36,197 nucleotides of DNA from an uncultured bacterium (GTDB taxonomy: Bacteria; Verrucomicrobiota; Kiritimatiellia; CAIKKV01; CAITUY01), in assembly GCA_903958395.1 (NCBI GenBank), contig CAJBSZ010000242.1, positions 1 through 36,197 on the forward strand, written 5' to 3'. The position numbers and the translations under genes were made by a program. Below the pieces are notes generated by a model that was not told where the DNA came from, made no database searches, and worked only from the letters and a program-made list of their open reading frames with translations. Positions 1-36,070 of the stretch are shown here, piece after piece (positions within the stretch are counted from its first letter, which is position 1; each line of letters begins with the position of its first letter).

Positions 1-570
1 CCGAACAATCTTCCAATAACGACTCGCCAATTGAACCGCCAGAACATTGTCATCTACAACCAGAACACGCTTCGCTTGCAGATCCTTGATTGATAAAGGA
101 ACAATATCCATTTGAAATGCAGGATCTGCCTTCAAGAAAGAAGCTGTAAGAATGAACTCGCTGCCATTCCCGGGAATGGACTCAATCCATATCTTTCCTT
201 GCATGGCTGTCACTAGCGCGCGTACGATCGCAAGCCCCAGTCCGGTTCCACCAAACTTGCGTGTTGTCGAAGGATCTGCCTGTTCAAAGGCCAGAAAGAT
301 CTTTTCCTGTTGATCCTTGGGTACTCCGATACCCGTATCCTTAACCGTAAAACGCAGCCCTATTTCACCACTTCTGCCCTCTATTAAAGAATCGTCCAGA
401 CGAACAATGATCCCAATACTTCCGCTAGCCGTAAACTTGATCGCATTGTTCAAAAGATTCACAAAGATCTGCCGCATGCGCGTCGGGTCACCTTTCAGAT
501 AACGCGGGATCTCTTTGGGAATGTCCACGTAAACCTCAAGCGGCTTGTCTTCCAGGCGAGGCAAGATCAT
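1..570 (-). CDS. Hybrid sensor histidine kinase, C-terminal part, running off the left edge
   Basis: The minus-strand frame reads a histidine-kinase ATPase domain followed by the first residues of a receiver domain. Visible motifs are the N-box (RQIFVNLLNNAIKFT), the G1 box (VKDTGIGVP), the G2 box (GTGLGLAIV) and, near the window edge, a receiver start (RVLVVDDN). The product would be a phosphorelay sensor kinase passing phosphate from a His to an attached Asp domain. The dimerisation/His-phosphotransfer domain that should precede the N-box is absent. Homology begins only a few codons after ATG 570, and the DNA upstream is the tail of the thioredoxin gene plus a beta-helix relic. The fragment therefore lacks its catalytic His and sensor region and is probably not a working kinase by itself. 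Its 3' end lies outside the window. No convincing ribosome-binding site precedes 570, so the start is a guess. Confidence 0.75.
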   Translation of the reverse strand, partial: MILPRLEDKPLEVYVDIPKEIPRYLKGDPTRMRQIFVNLLNNAIKFTASGSIGIIVRLDDSLIEGRSGEIGLRFTVKDTGIGVPKDQQEKIFLAFEQADPSTTRKFGGTGLGLAIVRALVTAMQGKIWIESIPGNGSEFILTASFLKADPAFQMDIVPLSIKDLQAKRVLVVDDNVLAVQLASRYWKIVR

Positions 571-8817: not shown

Positions 8818-8905
8818 CGTATGTCTCCTTGGCTACTTTAGCTCCCCCGAATTGATCCCACTTTTCTCAAATTCAGCTTATAGTTTCGCACATCCCAAAA
8901 TATCC

Positions 8906-8929
8906 GTCATGTCGTAAAAAAAACGACAT
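8906..8929 (-). promoter_or_regulatory. Dyad-symmetric motif upstream of the 914-residue gene, shared with the operon at 23135
   Basis: Plus-strand GTCATGTCGTAAAAAA (8906-8921) is part of a perfect inverted repeat: ATGTCG at 8909-8914 and CGACAT at 8924-8929 around an A-rich spacer. It sits about 90 bp upstream of ATG 8817. The same 16 bases occur in the same orientation at 23198-23213, upstream of the beta-helix lipoprotein gene. A common regulator site is inferred. Confidence 0.5.
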
Positions 8930-8976
8930 AACTGGGAGTGATGATTTGGCGGCCTTGTAACGGCTGCCCTACTGGT

Positions 8977-8996
8977 GCGACGCTCAGGGTCGTCGC
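8977..8996. other. Hairpin-forming inverted repeat in the divergent intergenic region
   Basis: GCGACG (8977-8982) and CGTCGC (8991-8996) form a 6-bp stem with an 8-base loop in the 262-bp gap between the divergent genes at 8817 and 9080. It could be an operator, a leader structure or chance in GC-rich DNA. Confidence 0.25.
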
Positions 8997-9079
8997 GCGC
9001 TATGAGCGTGCCCCCCCCTACGGAGCCCTCCTGCATCCTAAGCTTGCTTTAAGCCTCGGCGTCCTTCTAAAGTGAACGC

Positions 9080-10798
9080 ATGAACCGAACCGCGTCCACT
9101 TGCAGACTCTGGCTTGGATTTGCCCTTGCCACCGGGCTGGGGCTCCTAGGCCGGACCGGAGCGGCCGGATTGTCGCTCGACTCAGTCGAGGTTAATGGAC
9201 GACTCACGACCCTCCAAGCGGATTCCACCGAACCCCTGCGAATCTCCTCGCAAGCCCGGTCCCTGCGGTTCAACTTTACCGAGGGTGACACCAATAACCA
9301 GCCGACGGCTCGTTTGCGCTACAAACTGGAAGGCTTCGAAAACTCCTGGCGTGACCTGCTGGACGAGCACGGCATGAAGGTGTACCTGCAGTTCTGGGAC
9401 AACGAAACCCTCGACCTGGGTCAGGTCGTCGGCGGTTCTTCTTATTATATGACGGGCGAAACACCCGGATGGCGAGGCTCCGTCGAAAAGTCGGTCTTTA
9501 TTCAGCGCCGGGAGACGTCCGTCGCGCCGGGCCGTTCAGTCGTTGTCAAAATCGCCATCACCTCCCTCGGCTATCGTCCTGCCATCGGCCTCGTTGGGAT
9601 GGATGCCATCCGCCTCCGGATCGAGCATCCGGAACAGGGCGGGCGCGCGGACCAATACACATGGCCCATGACCGAGGGCATTGGCCTGAACGAACCGATG
9701 GGAATTCCGGCCCACTGGGTACGGCAGGGGTCGCTCGCGGAAATGGCCCAATTGCGCATCCGGCCCACCCCTGTGCCCCACCCCGTTCTTGTCCTCAATG
9801 ACACCAGTGCCAACCGGTTTGCCGTCTGGATCACAGACATCACGACGCAAGTGATTCCGACCCATCCCGGCGATCAGGTAACGCTGGAATGGCAGACCGC
9901 TTATAGTGTCGGAGGCTGCTCGCCGGGCCTTGCCGAGTACCCGCGGCTGAAACCCGGCCACTACCGGTTCCGGGTGGCCACCGCCGCCGCCAACGGGGAG
10001 CTGACCGGAACGGAAGTATCACTGCCGGTCCTGGTGGTGGAGCCGGTGTATCATCGGTGGGAATTCTGGCTGACGCTTGTGCTGGCGGCGGGCGGCGGCG
10101 CCAGTTGGCTGAGCCTGATCATGGTGCGGCGGCGTCTGCGGATGCGGCTCGCCGAGAACGAACGGCAACACGCCCTGGAGCGGGAACGGGCGCGCATCGC
10201 CCGGGACCTGCATGACGACATCGGCGCCGGCTTGACGGAAATCGCCATGCAAAGTGCCTGGGTCTTCCGGGACTACGATCTGGGCCCCACAACTGACGGA
10301 CGACGACGCATCGAGCGCATCCGCCAGTCGGCCTCGGAACTGGCGCGCAACGTGGATGAAATCGTCTGGGCGGTGAACCCGGCCAACGACACGGTGGATC
10401 GCTTTGCGAATTACCTGACACAATCCATGGAGCAGTTACTCGACGCGGCGGACCTTCGCATTCGTTTCGATGTCCCCACCACCCTGCCTACCACCCCTTT
10501 GACCGGCAAGGTCCGGCATTTCCTTTTCCAAGCCGCACGCGAGGCCCTGAATAACGCGGTTAAGCACGCCCGCGCTCAGACGGTCCAGATCGGAATCCGG
10601 ATTGATAACGGGACGTTGCGTATCACCATCGAGGATAACGGGTGCGGATTCACGCCCGACCAGGCCGGGGCGGCGGGTACCCACGAGGGCCTCGACAGCA
10701 TGCGGCGGCGGATGGAGGAAATCGGCGGCCAGTTCATCCTGACCAGCCGCCCCGGAGCCGGAACAAAGGTAGAATTCATCGCACCATCGCAGAATTGA
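9080..10798 (+). CDS. NarL-type sensor histidine kinase with periplasmic domain
   Basis: A 572-residue membrane sensor kinase that should phosphorylate the response regulator encoded 13 bp downstream. It has a signal peptide or first hydrophobic segment (about 10-30), a periplasmic sensor of about 290 residues ending in a Y_Y_Y-like beta-sandwich (KPGHYRFRVA, 291-300), and one transmembrane helix (about 328-349). A basic linker and coiled stretch follow. The HisKA_3 domain contains the phosphoacceptor in ARDLHDDIGAG (His378), and the ATPase has the G1 box IEDNGCGF and a late GLDSMRRRMEEIGG typical of the family. The beta-propeller often found in front of Y_Y_Y domains is missing, so the ligand site must lie in the unusual periplasmic region. 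It is divergent from the exported repeat-protein genes, which are possible targets. ATG 9080 fits the signal peptide. Confidence 0.9.
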   Translation: MNRTASTCRLWLGFALATGLGLLGRTGAAGLSLDSVEVNGRLTTLQADSTEPLRISSQARSLRFNFTEGDTNNQPTARLRYKLEGFENSWRDLLDEHGMKVYLQFWDNETLDLGQVVGGSSYYMTGETPGWRGSVEKSVFIQRRETSVAPGRSVVVKIAITSLGYRPAIGLVGMDAIRLRIEHPEQGGRADQYTWPMTEGIGLNEPMGIPAHWVRQGSLAEMAQLRIRPTPVPHPVLVLNDTSANRFAVWITDITTQVIPTHPGDQVTLEWQTAYSVGGCSPGLAEYPRLKPGHYRFRVATAAANGELTGTEVSLPVLVVEPVYHRWEFWLTLVLAAGGGASWLSLIMVRRRLRMRLAENERQHALERERARIARDLHDDIGAGLTEIAMQSAWVFRDYDLGPTTDGRRRIERIRQSASELARNVDEIVWAVNPANDTVDRFANYLTQSMEQLLDAADLRIRFDVPTTLPTTPLTGKVRHFLFQAAREALNNAVKHARAQTVQIGIRIDNGTLRITIEDNGCGFTPDQAGAAGTHEGLDSMRRRMEEIGGQFILTSRPGAGTKVEFIAPSQN

Positions 10799-10811
10799 AC
10801 AAAGGACTCAC

Positions 10812-11456
10812 ATGATTAAAGTTGCTGTTGTTGAGGATGATGCGCGAATCCGGCGGGTGCTGACGGAGGTTTTCGCCAATGACAAGGACTGCAAATGCAC
10901 GGGGATGTTCCGCGACGGGACTTCCGCCATCGCCGGAATCCCCAAACTCAACCCCGATGTGATCATCATGGACATCAACCTACCGGACATCAGCGGGGTG
11001 GACTGCGTGGCCCGCATTGCCCCCCAACTGCCCGGCACCCAGATCATTATGCTGACGAGCTACCAGGATCCCGAGATGATCTTCCGGGCGCTGTCTGCAG
11101 GAGCGCATGGCTATCTGGTTAAGCCCGTGATGCCTGACAAACTGCTCGAGGCCATCCGTGAGGTCCGTGAAGGCGGGGTGCCGATGAGCCGGACCATCGC
11201 CCGCAAGGTCATCGAGGTCTTCCACCATCCTCCCCCGCCCCAGCCCCCCAACGCGCCCCCCGAGGATACCAGCCTGAAAACACGGGAGGCGCAGGTTCTG
11301 GAATTCCTCGTCGCCGGCCTTTCATACAAGGAGATTTCGTCGGAATTAGATATCAAACCGTCCACAGTGGGAACCTACGTCCAGCGGATCTACGAGAAAC
11401 TCCACGTCCGCAGCCGCCGCGAAATCATCGCCCTGCACAAAGGCGCATCAGGATAA
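10812..11456 (+). CDS. NarL/FixJ-family response regulator
   Basis: A 214-residue transcription regulator and the likely partner of the kinase just upstream. The receiver domain has the acidic pair Asp9/Asp10, the phosphoacceptor Asp54 (IIMDINLP), Thr82 and Lys104 (GYLVKP). A Pro-rich linker (about 138-152, PPPPQPPNAPP) leads to a LuxR-type helix-turn-helix (TREAQVLEFL, then KEISSELDIKPSTVGTYVQ). Phosphorylation should trigger dimerisation and DNA binding at sites not identified here. AAAGGA lies 5 bases before ATG 10812. The stop codon is separated by a single base from the stop codon of the convergent GH28 gene, leaving no room for a terminator between them. Confidence 0.93.
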   Translation: MIKVAVVEDDARIRRVLTEVFANDKDCKCTGMFRDGTSAIAGIPKLNPDVIIMDINLPDISGVDCVARIAPQLPGTQIIMLTSYQDPEMIFRALSAGAHGYLVKPVMPDKLLEAIREVREGGVPMSRTIARKVIEVFHHPPPPQPPNAPPEDTSLKTREAQVLEFLVAGLSYKEISSELDIKPSTVGTYVQRIYEKLHVRSRREIIALHKGASG

Positions 11457-11457
11457 C

Positions 11458-12783
11458 CTAAGGAAATCGACAGTCTGTGGTTTCGCAACCAACAACATCC
11501 TCACAGGCAAGCGCCGGGCGAGGATCAGAGTGTTGCACCTTGGCGACCACGTGTTTCAAGGTCATCGCGCGGGCGTGACGGATCGTGAAACAGGAGGCCG
11601 GCAACGCTCCGAAATAGAAGTGTTCGGGATACATCGCCGGCTGTTCCGGGGGCTTGTTTTGAAGGTCTTCCGACTGACCTCCACCGACAAAGTTGATCTC
11701 GATGTCTTCTAGCGTGACCTCCTCGATGCAATGGCCAGGCAAGCCCGTGATCAGGACCCCGGAAAAAGCGCGGGCCGGCATCACACCCCCGACCACCGGC
11801 CTCACAATATCCTTGGGCGGCACAAAGACGTCGGCCTTGATGTTGGAGAGCTTGATACGCCTTAGTTTCCCCGGCCCCTTCGGTTCAGTTCCCGACAGAT
11901 AGGTGCGACCCCGCTCCCCCAATCGCATGAAGATTGGCCCCGTTCCACGCTCAATACGGATGTTCGAAATCTCGATATCCTCAAACACGCCGCCATCGGA
12001 GGTCAACAGTTTGATGGCCCCGGTCGCGGCATAGCGTATCCGGCAATCGGACATCCTGACCCGCCTGATGTCGCCATAGGATTCCGTCCCCAACTTGAGG
12101 CCACCGCACTCGGTGACGAGCGTACAACCTGAAACCTGGATATCTTCACAAGGCTCGGGCAAAGTGGCCTTGAGACAGATGGCATCATCGTCACAGGCAA
12201 TATCGCAATCGGTGATCGTAACCCGCCGACTGCTGTCCACGTCAATGCCGTCGTTGTTCTCATTGATGCGGCTGTCAATCGTGAGTCCAGTGATGTCCGC
12301 ATCCTCGCAACCCATCAAATGAAGGGTCCACGCGGCTGACGCGCGCAGGGTGAGCCCCGTGATGGTGATGTGGCGCGAATAGGCCAGGCGGCAAAGGAAT
12401 GGACGAACCTTGTGGTCGGCCCCGCCAATGGGGAAAGCCCCGCCGTTACCGTCAATGATCCCTTCACCGGTGATCGCAATGCGGGCCACATGTTCCGCCA
12501 TGATCAGCGCCCGGCCCCGGATATCGCCGATGGCATCGGTGAAGGATGTTTTGGGCGGGGGGTAGTCCGCTAGACTGGCGCTCCCCACGATGATCGCTCC
12601 GCGTTGCAGGTGCAACTCCACATTGTCCCGCATGAAGAGCGTGCCGCAGCGATAGGTGCCGGGCGAGAGGGTCACCCGGCCCCCGCCGTTTGAAGAACAC
12701 GCATCAAGCGCCGCCTGAATGGCGGGCGATTCCAGTGTGCTCTTGGATTCCCGCCTGTAAGTATGCAAGGTCACAGCATTCAT
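11458..12783 (-). CDS. GH28-family (polygalacturonase-like) glycoside hydrolase
   Basis: A 441-residue right-handed parallel beta-helix protein and the last gene of the six-gene operon. The N-terminus matches the GH28 start (ESPAIQAALDACSSNGGGRVTLSPG). GH28 acid motifs are visible: NNDGIDVDS and CDDDAICLK supply the catalytic Asp residues. The usual G-H-G motif reads ECGGLKLGTES, so the conserved His is replaced; the downstream basic motif also looks altered (AIKLL instead of RIK). Substrates of the family are galacturonans, rhamnogalacturonans and related uronic-acid polymers; the substitutions suggest a divergent specificity. No signal peptide is visible, so the enzyme is probably cytoplasmic. 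Its ATG overlaps the sulfatase stop codon (ATGA, 12780-12783), indicating translational coupling. Confidence 0.85.
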   Translation of the reverse strand: MNAVTLHTYRRESKSTLESPAIQAALDACSSNGGGRVTLSPGTYRCGTLFMRDNVELHLQRGAIIVGSASLADYPPPKTSFTDAIGDIRGRALIMAEHVARIAITGEGIIDGNGGAFPIGGADHKVRPFLCRLAYSRHITITGLTLRASAAWTLHLMGCEDADITGLTIDSRINENNDGIDVDSSRRVTITDCDIACDDDAICLKATLPEPCEDIQVSGCTLVTECGGLKLGTESYGDIRRVRMSDCRIRYAATGAIKLLTSDGGVFEDIEISNIRIERGTGPIFMRLGERGRTYLSGTEPKGPGKLRRIKLSNIKADVFVPPKDIVRPVVGGVMPARAFSGVLITGLPGHCIEEVTLEDIEINFVGGGQSEDLQNKPPEQPAMYPEHFYFGALPASCFTIRHARAMTLKHVVAKVQHSDPRPALACEDVVGCETTDCRFP

Positions 12784-14531
12784 GGTACTGCCTTATTCGC
12801 TTTGCCAGTTGAGGAAACCGCCGCTTCCTTCGAGACCCGGAAGTCGTGCGAAAGCGTTTCGGCCGTAGCGCGTGCCGTAGCATCGTAATCCCAGTACTGT
12901 TTCACCACGGCTTCGATTTGCGGGTAGTCGGCGCCATCATCGCCAATTGCCCGGCGGCGGTCGGCGAGTTGTTTTTTCAAGTCGCTGACCACCCGGGCAT
13001 AGGCGGGATCATCGTAGACATTCACCAGTTCCTGCGGATCTTTCTTCAGGTCGTAAAGCTCCCAACCGGGCGGCGTTCGCGGCATCTTGTCATCACGCCT
13101 CATACCGTAATAGAAAATGAGTTTGTAATCCTTCGTGCGCAGGCCGAGATTGCCGGGGTTGTCGTGATGGACCATATGCATCCAATAGCGATAGTAGGCT
13201 GCGTGTTTCCAATCCACCGGTTCGCGACCGGTCTCGCATATCGCCTTGAAACTGCGACCCTGCATGACTTCCGGAGCCTTGATGCCGGCGATGTCGAGCA
13301 ACAAGGGCGCAAAGTCGACGTTTTCGACAATGGCATCCGTGCGGGAGCCAGGTTTGATGGTTTTCGGATAGCGGATGATAAACGGCATCCGTTCCGATTC
13401 CTCATACATCCAGCGCTTATCCATATAGTCATGTTCGCCCAGCATCATGCCCTGGTCACTGGTGTAGATGATGACCGTATTCTCCATCAAGCCGGCGGAT
13501 CTCAGATAATCGAAGAGTATCGCCAAGCTGTCATCAATGCCCTTGACGCAGCGGAGATAGCGCTTGAGATATTCATTGTAAGCGGCCCGCTTGCGCTGTT
13601 CCTCGGTGGGCAACGCTTCGAATCCGAACTTTTTGACATAATTGAAATGGGAGTTTCGAGTGCCGATGGAAGTTCCGATGTAGGGCAGGAGTTCATCATG
13701 ATGGCCCCGCGTGGCGATGGAGCCAAAGCCGGGCTGACTCCACAGGCTTGATGGTTCAGGGATCTCGACGTCTTTCAAGTAATCCTTGTATCGCGGGGCA
13801 AACTCGAACATGTCGTGCGGCGCCTTCTCATGATACATGAGGAAGAACGGTTTTCGAGGATCGCGCTTATGTTTCATCCAGTCCAGCACCAGATCCAATA
13901 TGACATCGGTGGTATGCCCCTCCCGCTTGATGGTGTTTCCCGGCCAGGGCTTTTCGCCCCTGACGAGGAAGGTGGGATTGAAGTATGGATTTAGCGTCGG
14001 GAGTACGCAGTAGTCGTCAAAGGGGCGGGGCTCGGCGCGCAGGTGCCACTTGCCGATCATCGCCGTCTGATAACCTGCCTGCTTCATCCCGATGGGGAGA
14101 TACTGGCAGGCGGGTTCCAATGTGCCATCCAGGTCATAGACCTTGTTCCGGTGGTTGTATTGCCCGGTGAGGATGGAGGCGCGGCTGGGAGTGCAGATGG
14201 AGTTTGCGGCAAAACAGTTTTCAAACAGCATCCCCTCCTTCGCCAGTTTGTCAATTGTGGGCGTTGGGTTCAACTTCGCCAGCCGGCCACCGTAAGCCCC
14301 GATGGCGTTGGCCGCATGATCGTCGGACATGATAAAAATAATGTTGGGCTTACCAGCCAAGGCGGGAACATCAGAGGCACTCAATGCGGCCAGGGGCGTC
14401 AGGATCTCCCGGGTGATCTGTGGAGGCTTGCCGTCGAGATACGGCGTGAACGGGTCGGTCGAATTGGCGGCGTGCAGCGGGATCAGCGTGGCCAATAGAA
14501 GAAGAAGAAGAAGTGTAATGGTGTATTTCAT
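12780..14531 (-). CDS. Exported family S1 sulfatase
   Basis: A 583-residue arylsulfatase-type enzyme with a strong signal peptide (residues 1-21, poly-Leu core). The alkaline-phosphatase-fold start KPNIIFIMSDDH supplies metal ligands Asp70 and Asp71, and the maturation motif CTPSR (Cys113-Arg117) gives the Cys that becomes formylglycine. Downstream landmarks are GKWHL, HDMFEF, a TSDQGMMLGEH metal/substrate motif and a C-terminal DUF4976-like tail. It removes sulfate esters from sugars in the periplasm or outside. No formylglycine-generating enzyme or anaerobic maturase gene lies in this window, so activation depends on genes elsewhere. It follows the GH43 chimera by 11 bp and overlaps the GH28 gene by 4 bases. 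The exact sulfated carbohydrate cannot be told from sequence. Confidence 0.92.
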   Translation of the reverse strand: MKYTITLLLLLLLATLIPLHAANSTDPFTPYLDGKPPQITREILTPLAALSASDVPALAGKPNIIFIMSDDHAANAIGAYGGRLAKLNPTPTIDKLAKEGMLFENCFAANSICTPSRASILTGQYNHRNKVYDLDGTLEPACQYLPIGMKQAGYQTAMIGKWHLRAEPRPFDDYCVLPTLNPYFNPTFLVRGEKPWPGNTIKREGHTTDVILDLVLDWMKHKRDPRKPFFLMYHEKAPHDMFEFAPRYKDYLKDVEIPEPSSLWSQPGFGSIATRGHHDELLPYIGTSIGTRNSHFNYVKKFGFEALPTEEQRKRAAYNEYLKRYLRCVKGIDDSLAILFDYLRSAGLMENTVIIYTSDQGMMLGEHDYMDKRWMYEESERMPFIIRYPKTIKPGSRTDAIVENVDFAPLLLDIAGIKAPEVMQGRSFKAICETGREPVDWKHAAYYRYWMHMVHHDNPGNLGLRTKDYKLIFYYGMRRDDKMPRTPPGWELYDLKKDPQELVNVYDDPAYARVVSDLKKQLADRRRAIGDDGADYPQIEAVVKQYWDYDATARATAETLSHDFRVSKEAAVSSTGKANKAVP

Positions 14532-14542
14532 ATGATTCGTCC

Positions 14543-17500
14543 TCAGGTCATCAGTGGCAGCCTCTGCTGGTTGCGAATGATTTCCATCCGCAGTTTCGCG
14601 CCTGCGGGCGTTGCGTTGAGAGCCTCACGGAATTCCGTCAGCCCTCTCACGGTCCGGCCGTTCAACCCCAGGACAAGATCACCCATGCGCAAACCTGCCT
14701 CGTGAGCCCCAGTCTGCTGGGGAACTTCCTCCACAACCACCCCGCCTGCATCCGCAGGCACGCCAAACGCGGAATACTCAAGGCCCTCCATATCGCGAAG
14801 GGTCACACCCTTCCAAGTCCAGGTGACTTGCGCCATGACCGGCGCGTCTATTTGCGGGGTGCCGGGAACGACCGGCGAGATCACCGGAGTCCGCGCCATG
14901 GCCTTCAAGCGCGGTGAGCAGACCCCGAACAGGTCCATGGGGAAATTAACGAATCCCAGTTTCAACGCCGGTGAACCAGCCTTAACCCGGAAATCGCCTT
15001 TGGCGGCATCCACAAAAAGCGGATCGCCTGAGATCGAATTCGCATCGCATCCTTTGTCGGCGAACTTGGTTCGGTCGGACTCCGAGGTGACATACGTTGT
15101 ACTGGTCAACTGCTCCCGCCAGGCGCCGAAATGGCCCTCACCGAGGAGGACGCCAGCCGCAAACAGATTGTCATCCACCTCCCTGCCCCATCGGGCGAGC
15201 TTCATTCCCGCCGGGCGATAGGGACCCATCACGATGTTGCGGGCAAAGACGTCGCCGGAGTTCTCGTACCAGACGTGCGGATGGAGGCTATTGTTGACGA
15301 TGACGTTGTTCGTCACGATACGGTCATAACCCTCTCGTAATTTGAGCCCTCCGTTCAATAGCAAGTTGTTGTAAATCTCATAACGGGATGAACCGTCGTC
15401 AAGATCCACGTCCCAGCCATGGTCACAACGCCAGCGGTTGTTCCGCATCACAATCGGCTGCACAACGTCCAGCAGCGGCAGCGCGGGGTCGGCGGCGACC
15501 TGTTTGTCCACCTCCTGCACGGAAGGATGCCAGAAACGGTCGCGTCCCCAGGAGTTGAAACTGCCATGGTCGCCGGTCTCCAGCACGGTATCAAAAATGT
15601 CGCAGTTCTCGATGACGTGGCCGCCCCAGCAGCCGTCGCCGATATTGATGCCGGCTCGCGGCACATCGTAGATCGAACAGTGCCGCACGGTAATGCCCTG
15701 CGCCATGTCGATCTCCACCGGCGCGGTCTGTTTCTCGAACCGGCCGCTGCGCGTAATGAGGCAGTCTTCCACCAGGCAGTCGGCGGGGTAATTATCCGTG
15801 AGCGGGCCGGGAGTCCGGTCGACCGTCGCGTAATCGAACTTGTCATCGTAATTGAAAACCGGACTCCGGACCGCCATGGGATCGCCCACAAAGGCGATGC
15901 CGTTCGCCCCGCTCTCGCGGATGAGGCAGCCGCGCACGGTGATGCGGCGGTTGTAGTTGTTGACGAAGACGGTGTTGCCGCCGACCTGGTCGAAATCGCA
16001 AGCCTCGATCGCCGAGTCCTCCGCACCGTTGAACACCACCGCCCCCCCGCGATAGACCGTCCAGTCCGAGCGTAACAGCGGTTCGCGATTGTCCATAAAC
16101 GTCCGCGCCGTATGCCGGAACGTCAGCCCGCGCACCGTGACAAACTTCACGGGGTTTTCCCGCGTCCCGTTGAATTCAATCAAATGGCGCAGTCGCACGA
16201 CTTCAATCGTCGCGCTCTTCAGGTCGACTGCGGCGGGCGGAATGAAATATAGCATTCCGCTTTTCGCGTCGTGGAACCACTCGCCAGGCGCGTCGAGTTC
16301 CTCGCGGATATTTTCCACAAACCGGAACTGCGGGTGCATCGGGCTTGGTCGGTTGTTCTGCCAGCCCCCCTCATACTCAAGCGAGCCATCGGCTTTCTTG
16401 CCCAGGATGCGCCAGTGCATATCGCCCCAGAGACCGACATGCATCGCGTGAATGTAGCCGTCGGCAGGGTCGGCCCAGCGGGCGACCCGTTCAGGCGAAA
16501 TGGCATCCGGCGCCGAACCGTTGAACTGTGCGGCCTTGGGGTCATACTTCGGATAGCGTGCCATATGCTGGCGCACGCCGTTGACAAAAAGCTGGTCCAT
16601 CACCAGGCCTGCGGGCGTTTTTGCCTGGAAGATCCCGTCACGGAAAGGCTGCCAATCCAATTCCAAGCGGGAGCCACCGCTGAGCACCGGCTTTTCGCCC
16701 GGCACTGCGGCATAGACTACCGGGGCCTCCTGCGTGCCTGAATCGGCCTCCGTGAACCGGAGGGTCTCCGGCAGGTAGTGAATGCCGTGATGCAGCAGCA
16801 CCATTACCGGCTCCCCGCGCCCGGCTATGGCGCGGGCGGCGGCCTGCGCCGCGGCGAGGGTTGCCAAAGGTTTTGTCGCCGTGCCGGGATTAGCGTCGTC
16901 ACCCTCTGGCGCGACATGGAGCCTGACGCCAGGCAGGGGGGGCAGGAGAATGAAGTCCGGCTGCTCCGCCGCCACCCCAGCCTTCCCGACCTTGTCGAAC
17001 TTAATCCGGACAATGCCGGGTTTTTCACGCCAGGGCGACCTGTAATCCGGTCCGAAGAAGGCGCTGTACCAGTGCCCGTCCCTGGCCTTGAAGAAGTTGC
17101 AGCCCCCGTTACACGGCACGCTCTCGTGTCTCATTTTATACGGTCCGTAAATGGAGTCGGAAACCGCCAGGCACATGGAATAGCGCCCGTAATAGTGATC
17201 TGTCGAGCCCAAGTAGTACTTCCCTTCACGCTTGAAGATCGTCGCCCCCTCGTAACCGATGCCAACCGGCTCCCGGTGATGGGTGGCGGGATCGTGGGGC
17301 GGATCCTCCAAAACAACCGGACGCAGGGGTTCGGCCAGATCGCTCAGATCATCCTTCATCCGGGCGATCCGGTTCGCCGGGCCGTAGGTGAAATAGACGG
17401 CGCCGTCGTCATCCTCAAAGAGGGTCGGATCAATCAGGAAGGAGCCTGGCAGGGGCCCGATGCCGCCCACGAGGGGTTTATCGGGGTTGGTCGCATGGAC

Positions 17501-18079
17501 ATAGGGCCCCTCGGGCTTGCCCGTCGAGCTCTTAAGGATCGACATCCCGCCCGGCGGCATCCCGAAGGTGAGACAGTAGTTCTTGTGAATGTACCTGATT
17601 TCCGGGGCCCAGATCGCACGGGTCGGGCCGCGGTGGTCGCGCCACAGCTTCTCCCATCCGCCGTCCTTTTCAATGCTCCAGACCAGACCCAGATAACTCC
17701 ACTGGATGAGATCGGCTGATTTCCACAGTTCGATCCCGTCATTGAATTTCCAGATATTATCACCCGACGAGCCGGTCATATAGTAATTCCCGTCCCCGCC
17801 AAGAATGATGTTGGTGTCGCGCAGATGGATGTCCCACACCGGCTTAATACGCGGCAGCAAGCCGCTCGTGACGACCTCACCCGTGGCCAGCGTGGCACGG
17901 TTCTCCTCCGTCACCGGGCCGCCCCCGACATCCGAGGCGCCGCCTCCGAGAACCCCCTCCCCCACAACCGGCCGGCCCGGCCCGGAAAGACCGGTACCTG
18001 TTTTGCGCACGGCATCAATCTGATCCCGAGTAAACTCCCGCGCCGCATTGATCTCAATAAGCTTCACACAATTCGTCAT
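14543..18079 (-). CDS. GH43-like beta-propeller fused to a right-handed beta-helix and a PDZ domain
   Basis: An 1178-residue protein with three parts. Residues about 80-375 look like a GH43-type five-bladed propeller with the expected acidic triad: Asp88 (RDTN), Asp217 (IDPTLFEDDDG) and Glu277 (GYEGATIF). From about 385 a long right-handed beta-helix starts HVAPEGDDANPGT and resembles the GH120/GH141-type helix proteins. The last 85 or so residues form a PDZ domain (GGVVVEEV, GLRMGDLVLGLNG). The first 75 residues are Gly-rich, without a signal peptide, so it appears cytoplasmic unless exported by another route. The start at 18079 is preferred because GAGGG lies 6 bases upstream. The longer frame from 18151 would overlap the preceding gene and lacks a site. 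Probable roles are removal of arabinosyl, xylosyl or galactosyl groups plus a second activity in the helix; the PDZ role is unknown. Confidence 0.87.
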   Translation of the reverse strand: MTNCVKLIEINAAREFTRDQIDAVRKTGTGLSGPGRPVVGEGVLGGGASDVGGGPVTEENRATLATGEVVTSGLLPRIKPVWDIHLRDTNIILGGDGNYYMTGSSGDNIWKFNDGIELWKSADLIQWSYLGLVWSIEKDGGWEKLWRDHRGPTRAIWAPEIRYIHKNYCLTFGMPPGGMSILKSSTGKPEGPYVHATNPDKPLVGGIGPLPGSFLIDPTLFEDDDGAVYFTYGPANRIARMKDDLSDLAEPLRPVVLEDPPHDPATHHREPVGIGYEGATIFKREGKYYLGSTDHYYGRYSMCLAVSDSIYGPYKMRHESVPCNGGCNFFKARDGHWYSAFFGPDYRSPWREKPGIVRIKFDKVGKAGVAAEQPDFILLPPLPGVRLHVAPEGDDANPGTATKPLATLAAAQAAARAIAGRGEPVMVLLHHGIHYLPETLRFTEADSGTQEAPVVYAAVPGEKPVLSGGSRLELDWQPFRDGIFQAKTPAGLVMDQLFVNGVRQHMARYPKYDPKAAQFNGSAPDAISPERVARWADPADGYIHAMHVGLWGDMHWRILGKKADGSLEYEGGWQNNRPSPMHPQFRFVENIREELDAPGEWFHDAKSGMLYFIPPAAVDLKSATIEVVRLRHLIEFNGTRENPVKFVTVRGLTFRHTARTFMDNREPLLRSDWTVYRGGAVVFNGAEDSAIEACDFDQVGGNTVFVNNYNRRITVRGCLIRESGANGIAFVGDPMAVRSPVFNYDDKFDYATVDRTPGPLTDNYPADCLVEDCLITRSGRFEKQTAPVEIDMAQGITVRHCSIYDVPRAGINIGDGCWGGHVIENCDIFDTVLETGDHGSFNSWGRDRFWHPSVQEVDKQVAADPALPLLDVVQPIVMRNNRWRCDHGWDVDLDDGSSRYEIYNNLLLNGGLKLREGYDRIVTNNVIVNNSLHPHVWYENSGDVFARNIVMGPYRPAGMKLARWGREVDDNLFAAGVLLGEGHFGAWREQLTSTTYVTSESDRTKFADKGCDANSISGDPLFVDAAKGDFRVKAGSPALKLGFVNFPMDLFGVCSPRLKAMARTPVISPVVPGTPQIDAPVMAQVTWTWKGVTLRDMEGLEYSAFGVPADAGGVVVEEVPQQTGAHEAGLRMGDLVLGLNGRTVRGLTEFREALNATPAGAKLRMEIIRNQQRLPLMT

Positions 18080-18105
18080 GGATAACCCTCGCTCTTTGCA
18101 CTTTC

Positions 18106-19296
18106 TTAGACTGCATATTGACTCACGCACTCTTTGGCGATTTTGTTCCATTCCTCCAACCGCTTCGGTTCACGGTTGACGGTGCTGATATCCTTCATGT
18201 ACATGGCCACGGTGCAGCCGTATTCGTGCGCAATGGCCAGATTCTCCTCCAGGTAGCGCCGTACGGCACCGGGATCCCAGTGTTCGCCCGCCAGCATCGC
18301 CGGATGGGGCCGCCAGCCGAAAATGAACCGGTTACGCACGTTCTGCGCGCCCTTGCGGAAGTCCACCCAGGGGCTCATGGATATCTGGTACAGGTTCGGC
18401 AGGTATTGCGCACAGATATCCACCTTGTTGTGCAACGGTTCACAGCAACCATAATGGACCCGCTTGAACCGCTTGAAAAACCGGGCCTCGTGCTGGAGCG
18501 CAAATTCCCCGTGCATCTCCGGGGAGACTTCGGAGAAGATCTGGGCGGCACCGGACACGGTCATCTCACGGGCAGGCTGTTCCAGTAGACCCTGGGCCTC
18601 CAATTGGTCCACGCGTGACAGCCAGCAGTCCACCAGCCGCGCCACCAGCTTATGGACATAGTCAGGGCGCAGCACCAGATCCATGAGGATTTCCTGGATG
18701 CCGGTCCAGCAGATCAACTCGTCCCACGGCACAAACCAAAATGAGGTGATCCCCTGCTTGCGAACGGAGAGGATGCCGTCGAAGATCTCGTTCCGCTTCT
18801 GATAGAGTTCCTCGGTGAGCCGCGCGTTGTGGCTGATCACCGGCATTTTGATCTTTTCGATGTCGCCCTCGTCCTGAATCTGGATGTGGAAATGGCGGGA
18901 CACGACATTGTTGGCCGCGTCCGTCTTCACAATATCCACCTGCTCGCTGATACCGAAACCGGAATCCTCGATGCAATAGGGCTGGATGGATTCGGCTGCG
19001 ACCACCAAGTCGCCAGGATGGTGCCGCCACTTGTACAGTTTGCGCCGCAGATCCCGTTCGATACCCTGGCAAAACGGATCAACGCACCGCATGTCCAGTT
19101 CCCCGGTCTGTTCCAGCTCGTTCCAGGGTTCCTGAAAAAAGGTAATCGAGGGGCGACCCGTCTGCATCTGGTCTACCGCCTCATGAACCCGGCGCCGCTC
19201 GTCGTTGACCGGGTCGGCGGCGGCCTCCGCCAATTCCCGCCCAAGTTGCCCCAAAACCCCACGATCCGAAGATGGAATTGACGTACTCATAATCAC
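18106..19296 (-). CDS. Uroporphyrinogen-decarboxylase superfamily protein
   Basis: A 396-residue (beta/alpha)8 protein of the URO-D/MtaA superfamily. True URO-D enzymes decarboxylate haem precursors, and the MtaA/MtbA branch transfers methyl groups to and from corrinoids using a His/Cys zinc site. Here HYGCCEPLH (residues 281-289) fits a metal-binding loop of the methyltransferase side, and the conserved haem-pathway N-terminus is not recognisable. Members of this superfamily are often found next to glycosidases and transporters in Lentisphaerota and relatives, with unknown substrates; that is family context, not proof. It starts 3 bases after the transporter stop codon and is followed after 26 bp by the GH43 chimera. 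The start is GTG 19296 or ATG 19290; GGGAG lies at a better distance from the GTG. It is probably cytoplasmic, perhaps demethylating or modifying a sugar product. Confidence 0.82.
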   Translation of the reverse strand: MIMSTSIPSSDRGVLGQLGRELAEAAADPVNDERRRVHEAVDQMQTGRPSITFFQEPWNELEQTGELDMRCVDPFCQGIERDLRRKLYKWRHHPGDLVVAAESIQPYCIEDSGFGISEQVDIVKTDAANNVVSRHFHIQIQDEGDIEKIKMPVISHNARLTEELYQKRNEIFDGILSVRKQGITSFWFVPWDELICWTGIQEILMDLVLRPDYVHKLVARLVDCWLSRVDQLEAQGLLEQPAREMTVSGAAQIFSEVSPEMHGEFALQHEARFFKRFKRVHYGCCEPLHNKVDICAQYLPNLYQISMSPWVDFRKGAQNVRNRFIFGWRPHPAMLAGEHWDPGAVRRYLEENLAIAHEYGCTVAMYMKDISTVNREPKRLEEWNKIAKECVSQYAV

Positions 19297-19299
19297 AAC

Positions 19300-20715
19300 T
19301 CACTCTCCCACCTCTGGTTTGGATGTATCCGGAGGGACAAACGCATCGAGGTTATCACCGCATTTTTCGCGCACATATCGGTAGACGCGGTATTGGAAAT
19401 AGGATGCCAGGCCATAGAAGAGCACCAGCCACACCGGGGCATAGCGGTAGGCAAACTCACTACCATGGTGGCACCACCGCATGACATCCAGGAAACCGCC
19501 CATCAGGATCCCGGCGGCAATTCCCGTGAACCCCACCAGCATGCTGATGGCGGACATGAACTGCCCGAAGCGTTCCCGCGGCAGGAGTCTCATGTTGATC
19601 GGAACCTGAGCCACCAGCATAACGGCGGTCACGCCCAGCAGCAAGAGATTCAACACCACCGAGACAACCAGCACCTGCCGCACGGGCATATCCACAAACA
19701 GGAATACGAGGAATCCCGCTGAGATCACGGTTTGGACCCCGCGCAGGACGGCGAACACCTTGACCACATTCATGCGGTCAATAAAGAGGCCGGCGATGAA
19801 AAAGACCGGCAGGGAGATAAGGGCGCCGTACCCGGCGATCCAGCCGATCTGTTTAAGATCGAGTCCCAGACTCCTGTTCATCAACAGGACAAACGGGGTC
19901 GCGGCGTTACCCACCTGCGTGAAGGCGGCGCCCAGGCAAATGTCCCAGTAGAAACGATGCCCGAAGGATTCGCGGAAATAGCCCTTCACCTTTCCAATCC
20001 AGGAGCCACCCGCCGGGCCCGGCGGCGGCGGCGGCGGATATTCCCCTTCCTTCACATTCAGGCACATCAGGGTATTCGCGATGGCGAAAAACACTCCGAA
20101 CCCGATGAAAACCTCGCGATAGTGGGTTTCGGCAAAGGGGAAAATGAGGAAATTAAACGCCACCACGGCGACGGTGCTGACAATCCGGAACATCATCGAA
20201 AAACGCCCCATCACTTCACGCGGCACGGTGTCGTTGAACAACATCCAATAGGGATCCCACACAAACGAGTTGCACATGGTGAACAAGAGGAGAAGCACGA
20301 CCACCACGCCAATGCTGCCCCCGGCTGCCGTCAGGGCGCCGCCGGAAAGGCGCACCATCAAGTGGCCGAGCGGATCGCTCAACCCGATGGCGACGAGAAT
20401 CAGGGCCATGACCGGCGTGCCTCCCAGCAGGAATGGAATACGCCGCCCCCACCGGCTCCGGGTGCGGTCACTCCAGGTCGAAATGACCGGGTTCCAGACC
20501 AGCCGGATCACGCCGGGCAGGCTGGTCATGAAGATGGAAATCAACATCGCCGAAGCGCCAAGGCTCTTGAGTTTCAGCGGAATGACATTGGGGATCACCA
20601 CCTCCACGATGTTGGTAAAGAAGGCGCCCCATAACAGCCAGGAGAAAAGGAGCACCAACCCCGGCGACGTGTAGGTCAGGGTGCCCAGATGATAAAGCCG
20701 CCCGGATTTTGTCAT
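19300..20715 (-). CDS. GPH-type (MFS) sugar:cation symporter
   Basis: A 471-residue integral membrane protein with about 12 hydrophobic helices. It belongs to the glycoside-pentoside-hexuronide branch of the major facilitator superfamily, shown by the loop DRTRSRWGRRIPFLLGG between helices 2 and 3 and by NPVISTWSD. These carriers import glycosides, pentosides or hexuronides with H+ or Na+ across the inner membrane. Position inside a glycosidase operon indicates uptake of oligosaccharides or monosaccharides released by the exported enzymes. The start ATG overlaps the stop of the beta-helix lipoprotein gene (ATGA, 20712-20715), and the stop is 3 bases before the URO-D-like gene, so the three genes are tightly coupled. 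A Pro-rich stretch (YPPPPPPGP) sits in the central cytoplasmic loop. Confidence 0.9.
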   Translation of the reverse strand: MTKSGRLYHLGTLTYTSPGLVLLFSWLLWGAFFTNIVEVVIPNVIPLKLKSLGASAMLISIFMTSLPGVIRLVWNPVISTWSDRTRSRWGRRIPFLLGGTPVMALILVAIGLSDPLGHLMVRLSGGALTAAGGSIGVVVVLLLLFTMCNSFVWDPYWMLFNDTVPREVMGRFSMMFRIVSTVAVVAFNFLIFPFAETHYREVFIGFGVFFAIANTLMCLNVKEGEYPPPPPPGPAGGSWIGKVKGYFRESFGHRFYWDICLGAAFTQVGNAATPFVLLMNRSLGLDLKQIGWIAGYGALISLPVFFIAGLFIDRMNVVKVFAVLRGVQTVISAGFLVFLFVDMPVRQVLVVSVVLNLLLLGVTAVMLVAQVPINMRLLPRERFGQFMSAISMLVGFTGIAAGILMGGFLDVMRWCHHGSEFAYRYAPVWLVLFYGLASYFQYRVYRYVREKCGDNLDAFVPPDTSKPEVGE

Positions 20716-23135
20716 TTAAACCTTTTCGCCCTCTGCATTTTTTCGAAGGGTATCGGCTGGAAGCCGGGAATTTGCCTAAAGATGACCGAGTCCGGGCGGA
20801 GCGTGAAGTCGCCCGCCGCCTCATTGACAAAGCCCGGATCGGTGTCGATCTCCACGTTGTGGTGGCGGTAATCCTGGTCCGGGTAACGGCTGCTGCCAAC
20901 GCCCTCGTCATTCCCAACCAGTGCGTTGTTGAAGACGCGGTTGTAGAGCGGGGTGTTGGTATTGTTGTTCACCGCAACCCCGAGATAGGTCTGGTAGAAC
21001 TCAGGATAGCGGGTGGAGTAAGGCGTCGCGGCCACATTCACATCCTTCGTCAGCATCTTCACCCCTAAGGTATATGTCGCAAGAGCCTTGGCGAAATCAC
21101 ATCCATCACCGGTTTTCACCCCGGGGTTGTCAATGAACAGGTTGTTCGCGATCACATGGTCATGGCCCTCCGTGATCCCGATCTGGCTGCGGCTCCAGGG
21201 CTTCACCGTGCGACCGATATTGCGGTAGAACACATTGCCGAAGACCTCCACGCCGTGGGTGCTGTTATCCAGGTAGACGGCGCAGTTCTGGGCGTTATGG
21301 TCCGGACTGCCCCGCTCGTTGTGATGGATGTAGTTGAATCGCAACTTGTTGCCCAGCATGCTCGGATTCTGGCGGGTCTCGATCACCCCGCCGTCTTTGG
21401 ACGCGGTGAGTCCCCGGCAAATTTCATTGTACTGCATGAGGTGGTCGTTGCCGAGGAAGTAGAGCAGCCCCCCGAGATTGTCATGCAGGTAGTTCCCTTC
21501 GACAACATTGCCACAGCCGTCCACAACGATCGCTTCCGAGTACATGTGGATGCGGCGATCCGTGTGATGGATGTTGGAATTTCGGACGAAGTTTTCTGCC
21601 GTGGTCAGCGTCTTGCGGTCGCCGCCGCCAAGTAGCACGCCCCCGCAACCTGTGTCATAAATCGTGCAGCCCTCAAGTCCGTTGCGCCGTCCACCCTGGC
21701 GATCCAGCGCCGTCGCGCCGGGAAGACGGACCGGAAGATTCTCCATGCCGGTGCAGAGCACATGCCGGTATGAACCGGGCAGGCGCGGCAGCGGTTTGCC
21801 GGGTCCGGCGGCCTTGGCCTCGGGCGGATAAGAAACACCCTGGGAGGATTTATCGGCCAGCCCGGTATCCCAGCCAAAGCCGATTTGCACTCCGACGACG
21901 CCGGTGTTGCGGATGACGCAGTTCTCCAGGACATTGTCCTCGCCTCTCTCGATGTAGACGCCGCTGGTACGCGTCGCCTCCAGGGTCAGGCCCCGCAGCC
22001 TCACATGGGAAGAATTCTCCATTGCCACCAACACATCATTCAACATGGAGACGACCACCTCCGACTTGCTACTCCAGCCTTCCGGCGGATAGAGGGTCAG
22101 CACACCGGTCTTGCGATCGAGATAATATTCGCCGGGCACGTCAAGTTCGTCCGGCAGATTGAAAATATAAAACAGCCCCGCCACGTCCTCATAGGTGGCC
22201 CACAGCCCCCTGATGGGTGTGTCAAAGGTAAGAGTGCCCTTCTTGGAATCCACCGAGGCTATTTTCCGGCTCGTGAACGCATAAGCGCGGATCAATCCCC
22301 CGGCGATGTAGGCGTCATCCAAAGGCCCCCATTGGACGGCATGGGAAAGCGCCTGTTGAGGGAAAAGCGCCGGGACATCGCCCTGATCGCCAAATCCCCA
22401 CGGCTTGATGGGCACATCCTTCAGCGAAATCGACGAATACTCCTTGGGATTGCCCTTTTCATCCTTCACGACAAGCTGAGAGGCGGCTTCGACCACACCT
22501 AGAAATGGCGACTTTTCGTTTAGGTTGGGCCAGCGAGCCAGGGTCATTGCCTTCCCGTCAATGGAGAGTTCCATCGGCGCGGGCAGATAATGCGAGCTGG
22601 AACCGAAATCCAGCGCGTGCAGCGGATGCAGTTCGCCATAGTCGGTGATCCCCAGGGCCTTCAGATCTGCCTGAATCAGGTGCCGTCGGGCGCGGCGGCT
22701 CACCACACGATCCAGAAATGCAGGATCCGTGACGGGTTTGAAAGCCGGGGCGGGAATCATTTTCCCGCCCACCAGCCGCACCGTTTCACCCGGCATGGCG
22801 GCATAAACAACCGGTGCGCCGGGTTTACCGGAATCGCGGGCATCCAAATCGAAGGAACGTTCACGGAGATAGACACCCTCGCGGAGCCAGACGGTAACAC
22901 CCCCATTGGGATATTTGCCCACCGCCTTGAGTTGCCGAACGGCATCGCGGGCCCGTTCCAGCGTCGCAAAGGGATGTGCCCGCGTCCCTGGGTTCACATC
23001 ACGCCCATCCGTCGCCACCCAGAAGGCAACACCGCTTGAGGCGGAGGCCGTCAGGGTTTTCGACAGGCACCCGCAAAGCAAACAAATCAGCGAGAGTCCT
23101 GCAATCAGCCGACCATGACCATTTTTTACTATCAT
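20712..23135 (-). CDS. Right-handed beta-helix lipoprotein, GH141/GH120-like
   Basis: An 807-residue protein when started at ATG 23135, which has GGGAGA five bases upstream; a longer frame from 23162 lacks a Shine-Dalgarno. The N-terminus is a lipoprotein signal peptide ending LICLLCGC. Then comes the characteristic beta-helix cap WVATDGRDVNPGTRAHPFATLERA, here broken only by description: VATDGRD, NPGT and PFATLERA are the key parts. A long parallel beta-helix follows with many Asn-rich turns (NCVIRNTG, NNLFIDNPG). The whole length and cap resemble proteins of the GH141/GH120 type, some of which are fucosidases, xylanases or xylosidases. It would act at the envelope on imported or external glycans. 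It is the first gene of the operon, with its start about 63 bp downstream of the shared 16-base motif. Its 3' end has a paralogous relic at 609-686. Confidence 0.86.
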   Translation of the reverse strand: MIVKNGHGRLIAGLSLICLLCGCLSKTLTASASSGVAFWVATDGRDVNPGTRAHPFATLERARDAVRQLKAVGKYPNGGVTVWLREGVYLRERSFDLDARDSGKPGAPVVYAAMPGETVRLVGGKMIPAPAFKPVTDPAFLDRVVSRRARRHLIQADLKALGITDYGELHPLHALDFGSSSHYLPAPMELSIDGKAMTLARWPNLNEKSPFLGVVEAASQLVVKDEKGNPKEYSSISLKDVPIKPWGFGDQGDVPALFPQQALSHAVQWGPLDDAYIAGGLIRAYAFTSRKIASVDSKKGTLTFDTPIRGLWATYEDVAGLFYIFNLPDELDVPGEYYLDRKTGVLTLYPPEGWSSKSEVVVSMLNDVLVAMENSSHVRLRGLTLEATRTSGVYIERGEDNVLENCVIRNTGVVGVQIGFGWDTGLADKSSQGVSYPPEAKAAGPGKPLPRLPGSYRHVLCTGMENLPVRLPGATALDRQGGRRNGLEGCTIYDTGCGGVLLGGGDRKTLTTAENFVRNSNIHHTDRRIHMYSEAIVVDGCGNVVEGNYLHDNLGGLLYFLGNDHLMQYNEICRGLTASKDGGVIETRQNPSMLGNKLRFNYIHHNERGSPDHNAQNCAVYLDNSTHGVEVFGNVFYRNIGRTVKPWSRSQIGITEGHDHVIANNLFIDNPGVKTGDGCDFAKALATYTLGVKMLTKDVNVAATPYSTRYPEFYQTYLGVAVNNNTNTPLYNRVFNNALVGNDEGVGSSRYPDQDYRHHNVEIDTDPGFVNEAAGDFTLRPDSVIFRQIPGFQPIPFEKMQRAKRFK

Positions 23136-23162
23136 AACAATCTCCCTGCTTCCCAAATTCAT

Positions 23163-23533
23163 TCTTAATTTGAATCTTCACAGATAGTCCAAACACTGTC
23201 ATGTCGTAAAAAAGACTACATCGGTAATCCGTCCGAGGTGACCTCAACTTTCCAGTCGCCCGTAAACTTGCCTAATGGGGTTCCACATCGTAACTCGAAA
23301 TAGTCCCTCTACTTCTGCCAACCTACCGCAGACTCCTCATGCATCGACGGCTTGGGCTGCCGTGGCGATTCCTTCGGTTTCGGCGGAGTGATCCGAAAGG
23401 AAATCGTGGAACAATGTGGTTTCCCACACCCCAACTTGTATTGCCGCGTGTTTCGTTCCGAGTCTGGATTGACTCAGTCCAATTACAGATCATGAACCAA
23501 AACTAGGTCAACGATCCTTGCCTCGCGATCGCT
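23163..23533. other. 371-bp intergenic region between the araC-type gene and the operon
   Basis: No coding region is credible here. It should hold the promoter of the six-gene operon; the shared motif lies at its left end. A partial inverted repeat (CCTTCGG, later CCGAAAGG) occurs near 23367-23402. I see no clear intrinsic terminator after the AraC gene, which is co-oriented with the operon. Confidence 0.4.
23198..23221 (-). promoter_or_regulatory. Second copy of the shared 16-base motif, upstream of the six-gene operon
   Basis: GTCATGTCGTAAAAAA (23198-23213, plus strand) is identical to 8906-8921 and in the same orientation to its downstream gene, about 63 bp from ATG 23135. Here the dyad is imperfect (ATGTCG against GACTACAT). 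The site probably binds a regulator; the AraC protein encoded upstream is the nearest candidate. Confidence 0.5.
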
Positions 23534-24421
23534 CTACCGCAACCGCCTGAACGCCGCCGGAGAGAGACCGAGTGTTGCCCGGAATACCCTGGAGAAGTGA
23601 TAGGGATCGTCAAACCCCACCTCCTCGGCGACCTGTTTGACCAGCACACCGGATTGCCGCAACCGGTCAGCGGCGGCATTCATCTTCAGCCTTAACAGAT
23701 GCTGGTACGGACTCTGGTTGTCATACCGCCGGTACAACCGGCACAAGTAAACGCTGGAAACATGGCATTCAGCCGCAATCTGACGCAACGTAAACAAGCG
23801 TAAGGCATGCTTTTCGATATACTGGCGGCAATGCTCGTACATCGTGAAGGCCAGCGTCTCCGACCCTTCCATCACCGCACTGGCCCCATCGATTCTCAGC
23901 GCCAGACACTCCAACAATTTGACGGATAATTCGGCGCTTTCACCCCGAATCCGCAACCCGACTTCGATCAGCTCGTCAAACAACGGCTGCAACACGTGCG
24001 GGGGATTGACATCCCTCACACTCCCCGGGGACAGGCGACAGGACTTCATCAGCGCCTCCGCCCCCGTCCCCGCAAAATCAACGAAATACTTCACCAACGG
24101 ATCTCCCGCCTCGCCCTGGATGTGGTGCGCCACGCCGGGGCCATACGAGAACACTCGACCGGGCTTCAGGACACAAGGGCTTCCTTTCAGTGTCACAGTG
24201 CCGGACCCGCGAACGACATACTCAAAGGAGAAGAAGGGAAAGGTGTCACGATGAATGGCATAATCCGGGTTACACCGTTCCAGGCCGCCGCAAACGACGA
24301 CGAGCCGCCGGGTCGCTGGGGGACTCAGATTAAGATAGAACCGACGCGCGCCCGCCACTTCGGCAGAGAAGAACTCGGGGATAGCCGGAATCCCGGATAC
24401 TGGCTTCACGGGTCGTTTCAT
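23534..24421 (-). CDS. AraC/XylS-family transcriptional regulator
   Basis: A 295-residue regulator. Residues about 40-130 form a cupin-like effector domain (FEYVVRGSGTVTLKG, LKPGRVFSYGPG, VAHHIQGE), which usually binds a sugar. The last 100 or so residues hold the double helix-turn-helix: FTLRQIAAECHVSSVYLCRLY, split as LRQIAAECHVS and YLCRLYRRY, then VKQVAEEVGFDDPYHFSRVF, ending in the family signature GLSPAAFRRLR. It lies directly upstream of the polysaccharide operon in the same orientation and is its likely activator. The start codon sits inside a dyad (24420-24456) and lacks a clear Shine-Dalgarno, which suggests autoregulation and perhaps a leaderless or weakly initiated message. Confidence 0.92.
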   Translation of the reverse strand: MKRPVKPVSGIPAIPEFFSAEVAGARRFYLNLSPPATRRLVVVCGGLERCNPDYAIHRDTFPFFSFEYVVRGSGTVTLKGSPCVLKPGRVFSYGPGVAHHIQGEAGDPLVKYFVDFAGTGAEALMKSCRLSPGSVRDVNPPHVLQPLFDELIEVGLRIRGESAELSVKLLECLALRIDGASAVMEGSETLAFTMYEHCRQYIEKHALRLFTLRQIAAECHVSSVYLCRLYRRYDNQSPYQHLLRLKMNAAADRLRQSGVLVKQVAEEVGFDDPYHFSRVFRATLGLSPAAFRRLR

Positions 24422-35970: not shown

Positions 35971-36070
35971 GGGAATCCTGAGAAAATTGAGAGCAAGCGG
36001 GCGACTGGCTTTACAGCCCACCAGCAAAGCCCGAAAATGGCTGGAAAACCACATGATAGCTTCGATCTAG

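Follow-up and report, generated by a model that had tools for sequence, protein, structure and literature searches.

In the polysaccharide-utilisation loci of Bacteroidetes, glycan-enzyme operons are placed under a local sensor with a periplasmic beta-rich domain, in the form of a hybrid two-component regulator with an AraC-type HTH. In Pontiella (Kiritimatiellales), HisKA_3 kinase and response regulator genes occur among sulfatases and GHs, and the part of that report considered here gives no operator or regulon and does not mention PATR proteins (PMC10880615). Two described operators are close in form to the one presented below. The UvrY/GacA box, TGTAAG-N6-CTTACA (TGTAAGNNNNNNCTTACA), is an 18-nt operator of a NarL/FixJ-family response regulator (PMC4682653), and the lux box is a 20-bp inverted repeat next to the -35 element, centred at -42.5 (PMC3376562).

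We analyzed a 36,197-nucleotide stretch of DNA from an uncultured bacterium of the Kiritimatiellia, hereafter the window. Its glycan-enzyme operons and locally encoded beta-rich sensor would work like a Bacteroidetes locus, but in the window the kinase and the NarL-type regulator are two distinct proteins. No SusC/SusD Pfam families were found among the window ORFs scanned, where PATR proteins and an MFS transporter occur instead; this sets the locus apart from a Bacteroidetes-type polysaccharide-utilisation locus. The placement of kinase-regulator genes near a sulfatase/GH cluster is shared with the Pontiella pairs, as far as that source describes them (PMC10880615). Like the UvrY/GacA box, the window operator is an inverted repeat of the form TGT...ACA, and the protein that binds UvrY's box likewise belongs to this family of response regulators; the inner half-site bases are different (TGTCGT, TGTCRC or TGTAGT, in 19-bp dyads), the spacer is longer and AT-rich, and the whole measures 19-21 bp. 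Furthermore, the UvrY site at csrB lies far upstream of its promoter (-183), whereas the window operator abuts the -35 element. The lux box resembles it as an inverted repeat of about 20 bp beside the -35 element, the window dyad being centred near -44 by the predicted -10, but it differs in sequence, and LuxR is a one-component quorum-sensing activator rather than a kinase-regulator pair.

We found no earlier description of such an operator, and no paper pairing the PATR repeat name with Verrucomicrobia, in the open-licence literature; nor did the literature searched contain an operator or regulon for the glycan genes of these sulfatase- and GH-rich bacteria. Other members of this regulator family have been described with inverted-repeat operators; the sequence of the present operator, its regulon and the link to PATR proteins are new. 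The analysis is one of sequence inference from a fragmented assembly.

Two inverted repeats on either side of a kinase-regulator pair

The original prediction was that one 16-mer, GTCATGTCGTAAAAAA, lies at 8906-8921 and 23198-23213, each time on the same side of a minus-strand operon. Both coordinates were verified on the plus strand (chance expectation for matches with up to 3 mismatches, 0.19), and both copies lie just upstream of such an operon. There are no further exact copies in the genome (559 contigs, 5.20 Mb), and the reversed pattern has none in the same 5.20 Mb. Both copies are embedded in a 21-bp palindrome, ATGTCGT-N7-ACGACAT, which in its two-sided form occurs in the window at these two sites only (expected 0.00). 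The perfect ATGTCG/CGACAT dyad that had been noticed in one copy is real and belongs to the first (candidate operator 1, 8909-8929, ATGTCGT-AAAAAAA-ACGACAT, with a 19-bp core at 8910-8928). What had been missed is that the second copy is likewise a dyad, with one mismatch (candidate operator 2, 23201-23221, ATGTCGT-AAAAAAG-ACTACAT, core 23202-23220), and that what the two copies have in common extends beyond the 16 bases. Beyond the sites themselves, the flanks are unlike each other.

Operator 1 is placed in the divergent gap between the minus-strand PATR operon and a plus-strand kinase gene that begins at 9080; the PATR gene starts at 8817, 92 bp downstream of the operator. This first operon encodes, by Pfam, an exported PATR-repeat protein (6073-8817) and a redoxin/thioredoxin-domain protein (536-3217), and between them an exported protein of unassigned function, orf2 (3265-6045). 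Homologues of orf2 follow PATR genes at C46, G005:C2 and C170. Operator 2 lies upstream of the gene for a beta-helix protein (20712-23162), the first of a second minus-strand operon. The start of this gene is likely 23135, in frame with the ORF caller's 23162, because an RBS (AGGGAG) and then a lipoprotein-like signal peptide are found there. The operon continues with an MFS sugar-transporter-like protein (19300-20715), a protein without a Pfam match (18106-19296), a GH43 + beta-helix + PDZ protein (14543-18151), a sulfatase (12780-14531) and a GH28 protein of the polygalacturonase family (11458-12783), the other assignments again being from Pfam.

Between the two sites sit the genes for a sensor histidine kinase (9080-10798, plus strand) and a NarL-type response regulator (10812-11456, plus strand), the latter tail to tail with the GH28 gene. 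The kinase consists of a signal peptide, an all-beta sensor region, a transmembrane segment, HisKA_3 and HATPase_c. Both PF07730 and PF02518 scored over the cut-off, making it a HisKA_3 (DesK-type) partner that adjoins the regulator gene, and in a structure search the kinase part of the model (moderate confidence) resembled DesK structures; a fold search with the sensor domain gave no informative match. The regulator has Response_reg (PF00072, 96 bits) and GerE (PF00196, 58 bits) domains, both over the cut-off, which places it in the NarL/FixJ family, and it is the proposed operator binder. Upstream of site 2, Pfam identified a minus-strand gene for an AraC-family regulator (23534-24421). Elsewhere in the window, an ORF at 34267-36054 combines matches to ribonucleotide reductase barrel and TSCPD domains with a short YicC-like N-terminal stretch.

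Distribution of the motif and its position in promoters

We searched the 5.2-Mb genome for the motif GTCA-TGTCRY-N7-RYGACA and obtained 12 sites. The pattern GTCATGTCGYWWWWWWWRCGACAY, with up to 3 mismatches, gave 17 matches at 12 places and none when reversed. These 12 operators are distributed as two each in the window, C170, C114 and C207 and one each in C46, C62, C89 and C480. Allowing up to 1 mismatch, TGTCRYNAWWWTNRYGACA also gave 12 places (control 0); it omits the weaker sites, window site 2 and C89, and additionally picks up C225, inside a gene, and a weak site at C360. Window site 2 and C89 each have one imperfect half, and in both the odd half is TGTAGT. Motif-like matches in coding DNA at C225 (a Schlafen-type helicase) and C35 were treated as chance.

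Random scatter, the outcome that would have spoken against a regulatory site, was not seen; the sites front PATR and glycoside-hydrolase operons. PATR protein genes neighbour the sites in the window, C46 and C170, while the neighbours are GH95 and GH106 at C114, a GH141-like protein and GH3 at C207, GH59 at C480, a GH78-like rhamnosidase at C62, and a truncated exported ORF beside GH106 at C89. Overall, the downstream genes encode PATR proteins, GH28/29/43/59/78/95/106/141-like/3, sulfatase and MFS proteins. The C170 operon (PATR, MFS, beta-helix, GH43, GH29, GH28) looks much like both window operons merged. From the kinds of operon served, we infer that the motif links surface proteins with glycan use, as had been suggested.

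Two further observations concern individual sites. C170 has two copies of the operator core, separated by 1.1 kb (L018:10278 and L018:11386), and no obvious gene follows the second in either direction up to the contig end. Near-identical DNA extends on both sides of the operator at C480, before GH59, and at C114, before GH106 (L077:4360-4430 and L019:1798-1870); judging by this identity, a promoter segment was recently duplicated before two different glycosidase genes.

The genome contains about 40 PATR-repeat ORFs (for example at C496, C244, C557 and C14), some of them very long (3957, 3178, 2635 and 2574 aa). The idea of an operator in front of every PATR gene proved false, with a TGTC...GACA palindrome upstream of only 6 of the roughly 40. 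Since most are without this operator, PATR genes must have several controls.

For promoter geometry, 14 sites were oriented by the nearest gene, independently of any -10, and two near-duplicates were left out (n=12). The 19-bp core ends on the base that opens a -35-like ATGACR, with xTGAC or xAGAC in 11/12 sites. Among 52 spacings, the best match to TATAAT was at N17, where A2 and T6 of the -10 were present in 9/12 sites against 0.84 expected, a result that 20,000 random placements never reached. As matches to a -10, the hexamers are modest, with a mean of 3.0/6. On the minus strand, the putative promoter of the PATR operon (8882-8910) would consist of the -35 ATGACG (8910-8905), overlapping the end of operator 1, N17 and a -10-like GAAACT (8887-8882), and that of the glycan operon (23174-23202) of the -35 ATGACA (23202-23197), N17 and a -10-like GAAGAT (23179-23174). 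In GTCATGTCGTAAAAAA, the conserved GTC probably represents the -35 element as read on the complementary strand. With these predicted hexamers, the site adjoins or overlaps the -35 at a fixed distance from the -10, as in a class II-type arrangement, and the dyad centre would fall near -44 relative to a transcription start predicted from the -10.

A promoter model trained on these sites recovered them and added two sites at C150, one at C531 and a weak one beside the regulator paralogue C430, all 20-bp dyads with other inner bases. The form TGTCATCARTTTTGATGACA occurs twice on C150, first before a PATR pair, while TGTCGTACATTTGTACGACA precedes a PATR gene at C531 and has a diverged copy beside C430. 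At the paralogue C192, TGTCCCTTATTTAAGGGACA lies between the regulator and a PATR gene. Beside C408 lies TGTAGTGAGTTTTGACTACA, and with 9 matches against 4 in the control in a broad search it is a lead only. The more distant paralogues seem to own separate operator subtypes.

Occurrence of the dyad with relatives of the regulator

The regulators closest to that of the window are encoded in the same genome at C114 (68% identical) and C207 (57%), and at both the palindrome is found just before the kinase gene. C207 has a second palindrome after the regulator gene and before the GH3 gene. Paralogues that are at most 48% identical to the window regulator are without this form of palindrome. In total, 4 of the 12 sites lie within 3 kb of the three clade regulator genes (binomial probability ~1e-7, or 2.7e-6 without the window's own site).

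The association extends to other genomes. In G043, from the same class and another family, identity is 67% for the regulator and 55% for the kinase. Here the kinase and PATR genes diverge as they do in the window, with TGTCACAATTATTGTGACA in the gap. In L105 (Verrucomicrobia subdivision 3; regulator 65%), TGTCACAGAGATTGTGACA is just upstream of the kinase. In G177 (regulator 67%) the kinase gene is internal to an operon. The dyad at this locus, a perfect TGTAGTAATCTTTACTACA that was detected only with a relaxed pattern, follows the regulator gene and has TATAAT at N17. The six regulators form one tree group (support 94/95). Five of them, including those of the window, C114 and C207, which have the same recognition helix type, share the helix motif TVxTYVxRIYEKL; the sixth, G177, combines a variant helix, TIGTHMQRIYSKL, with a variant operator. 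The motif is therefore linked to both paralogues and orthologues of the regulator, with the exception of L106, a Planctomycetes relative (59%) with no such dyad at its locus. In that MAG, the kinase-regulator pair directly follows a gene with a PEP-CTERM-like tail (VPEPGTLALAGVGVILAGWRLARRR; L106:5700-6120). A further relative, L107, is truncated.

Across 116 genomes of the class, the sequence-only promoter model gave matches at E<=0.001 in this genome (G000) and G043 only. Close regulators are also rare, being found in 6 of 346 class genomes at E 1e-60. G005, of the same genus, carries a site of the C46 type upstream of a PATR orthologue, and no close regulator was found in its 78% complete assembly. 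When 80 regulator loci from named genomes were scanned, L105 alone was convincing, the other weak matches being no more numerous than in the control. We also considered TGTCGCAAATTTTGCGACA, or its complement, as an operator and rejected it; its flanks are protein-like and resemble one another, and it lies inside or next to ORFs, apparently as a conserved coding stretch and not in promoters. This palindromic operator mimic is present as a single copy in eight other class genomes (L092, L094, L096, L098 and others).

The proposed switch and its alternatives

We propose, with a probability of about 0.82, that the motif serves as operator for the two-component system whose genes lie between its copies, and that this system activates both window operons. 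The original prediction had named either the AraC protein or the two-component regulator as the binder; the second of these is favoured by the motif lying beside the closest paralogues and orthologues of the regulator. AraC proteins often control sugar genes, and the window's AraC gene is directly upstream of operon 2, so that its product could be imagined to bind the motif and control both operons. Yet tblastn found no homologue of it at the other motif loci examined, where regulator homologues are present; specifically, the G043, L105 and G177 loci gave no AraC match where searched, and no linkage of the motif to AraC-family genes over several loci was seen. Proteins of the AraC family usually bind direct sites or single, asymmetric ones, unlike the symmetric dyad seen here, and control by the AraC protein is very unlikely. 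It is hardly credible that the two copies reflect chance, or an A-rich promoter segment that was duplicated recently. The spacer is indeed A-rich and one promoter duplication is evident elsewhere, at C480 and C114, but the flanks of the window sites differ, the reversed control yielded nothing against 17 matches, and the dyad is conserved with different spacers in other genomes. Both the genome-wide and the cross-genome distribution contradict such an origin.

It is also unlikely that an unlinked regulator, such as another clade member alone or some other dimeric protein, binds the window sites, the linkage then arising from that regulator controlling kinase-regulator genes. The C114 and C207 regulators do share the helix type and the motif, and the same co-localisation would result if several such operons were controlled by a third protein. 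Against this, the motif follows this regulator clade through four genomes, and the promoter model singled out only two of 116 genomes of the class. The three clade regulators in this genome have one motif in common, which does not tell them apart, and any of them could act on the window promoters. A different possibility is that binding of the regulator to the dyad is repressive, blocking RNA polymerase at the overlapped -35 until a signal arrives. The overlap with the -35 hexamer suits steric repression, but the constant spacing from dyad end to -10 and the poor -10 hexamers better fit activator-dependent promoters, and NarL/LuxR-type proteins activate from about -42, as at the lux box (PMC3376562). 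Because the dyad centre at about -44 is like the -42.5 of the lux box, we prefer a reading in which the regulator activates while bound at a class II-like position, and regard repression as a rather improbable, if possible, mode.

In the proposed two-component switch, an extracellular, probably glycan-related signal would activate the membrane kinase (9080-10798), which would phosphorylate the NarL-type regulator (10812-11456). The regulator would then dimerise, each GerE helix-turn-helix recognising its own half (TGTCRY or TGTAGT) of the 19-21-bp dyad. With the gene-facing end of the dyad merging into a weak -35 (ATGACR), a dimer bound near -44 could contact RNA polymerase. At site 1 this would turn on the PATR operon, and at site 2 the beta-helix/MFS/GH43/sulfatase/GH28 operon. 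Site 1 may in addition let the regulator control the operon that encodes it and its kinase. In this genome, a single regulator clade and operator family would be in use at roughly twelve promoters of glycan and PATR genes, and also at orthologous loci in other Verrucomicrobiota.

A broader and more tentative idea, to which we give somewhat less than even odds, is that in Kiritimatiellia paralogous kinase/NarL-regulator pairs, each with its own subtype of TGT...ACA dyad overlapping the -35, drive modules of PATR surface proteins and glycan degradation, as a counterpart of the Bacteroidetes hybrid-regulator locus. The variation of regulator helix and operator half-site together offers a recognition code that can be tested. 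With an operator and its likely regulator in hand, co-induced genes would become predictable in these bacteria, and the so far uncharacterised PATR surface proteins would be tied to glycan use.
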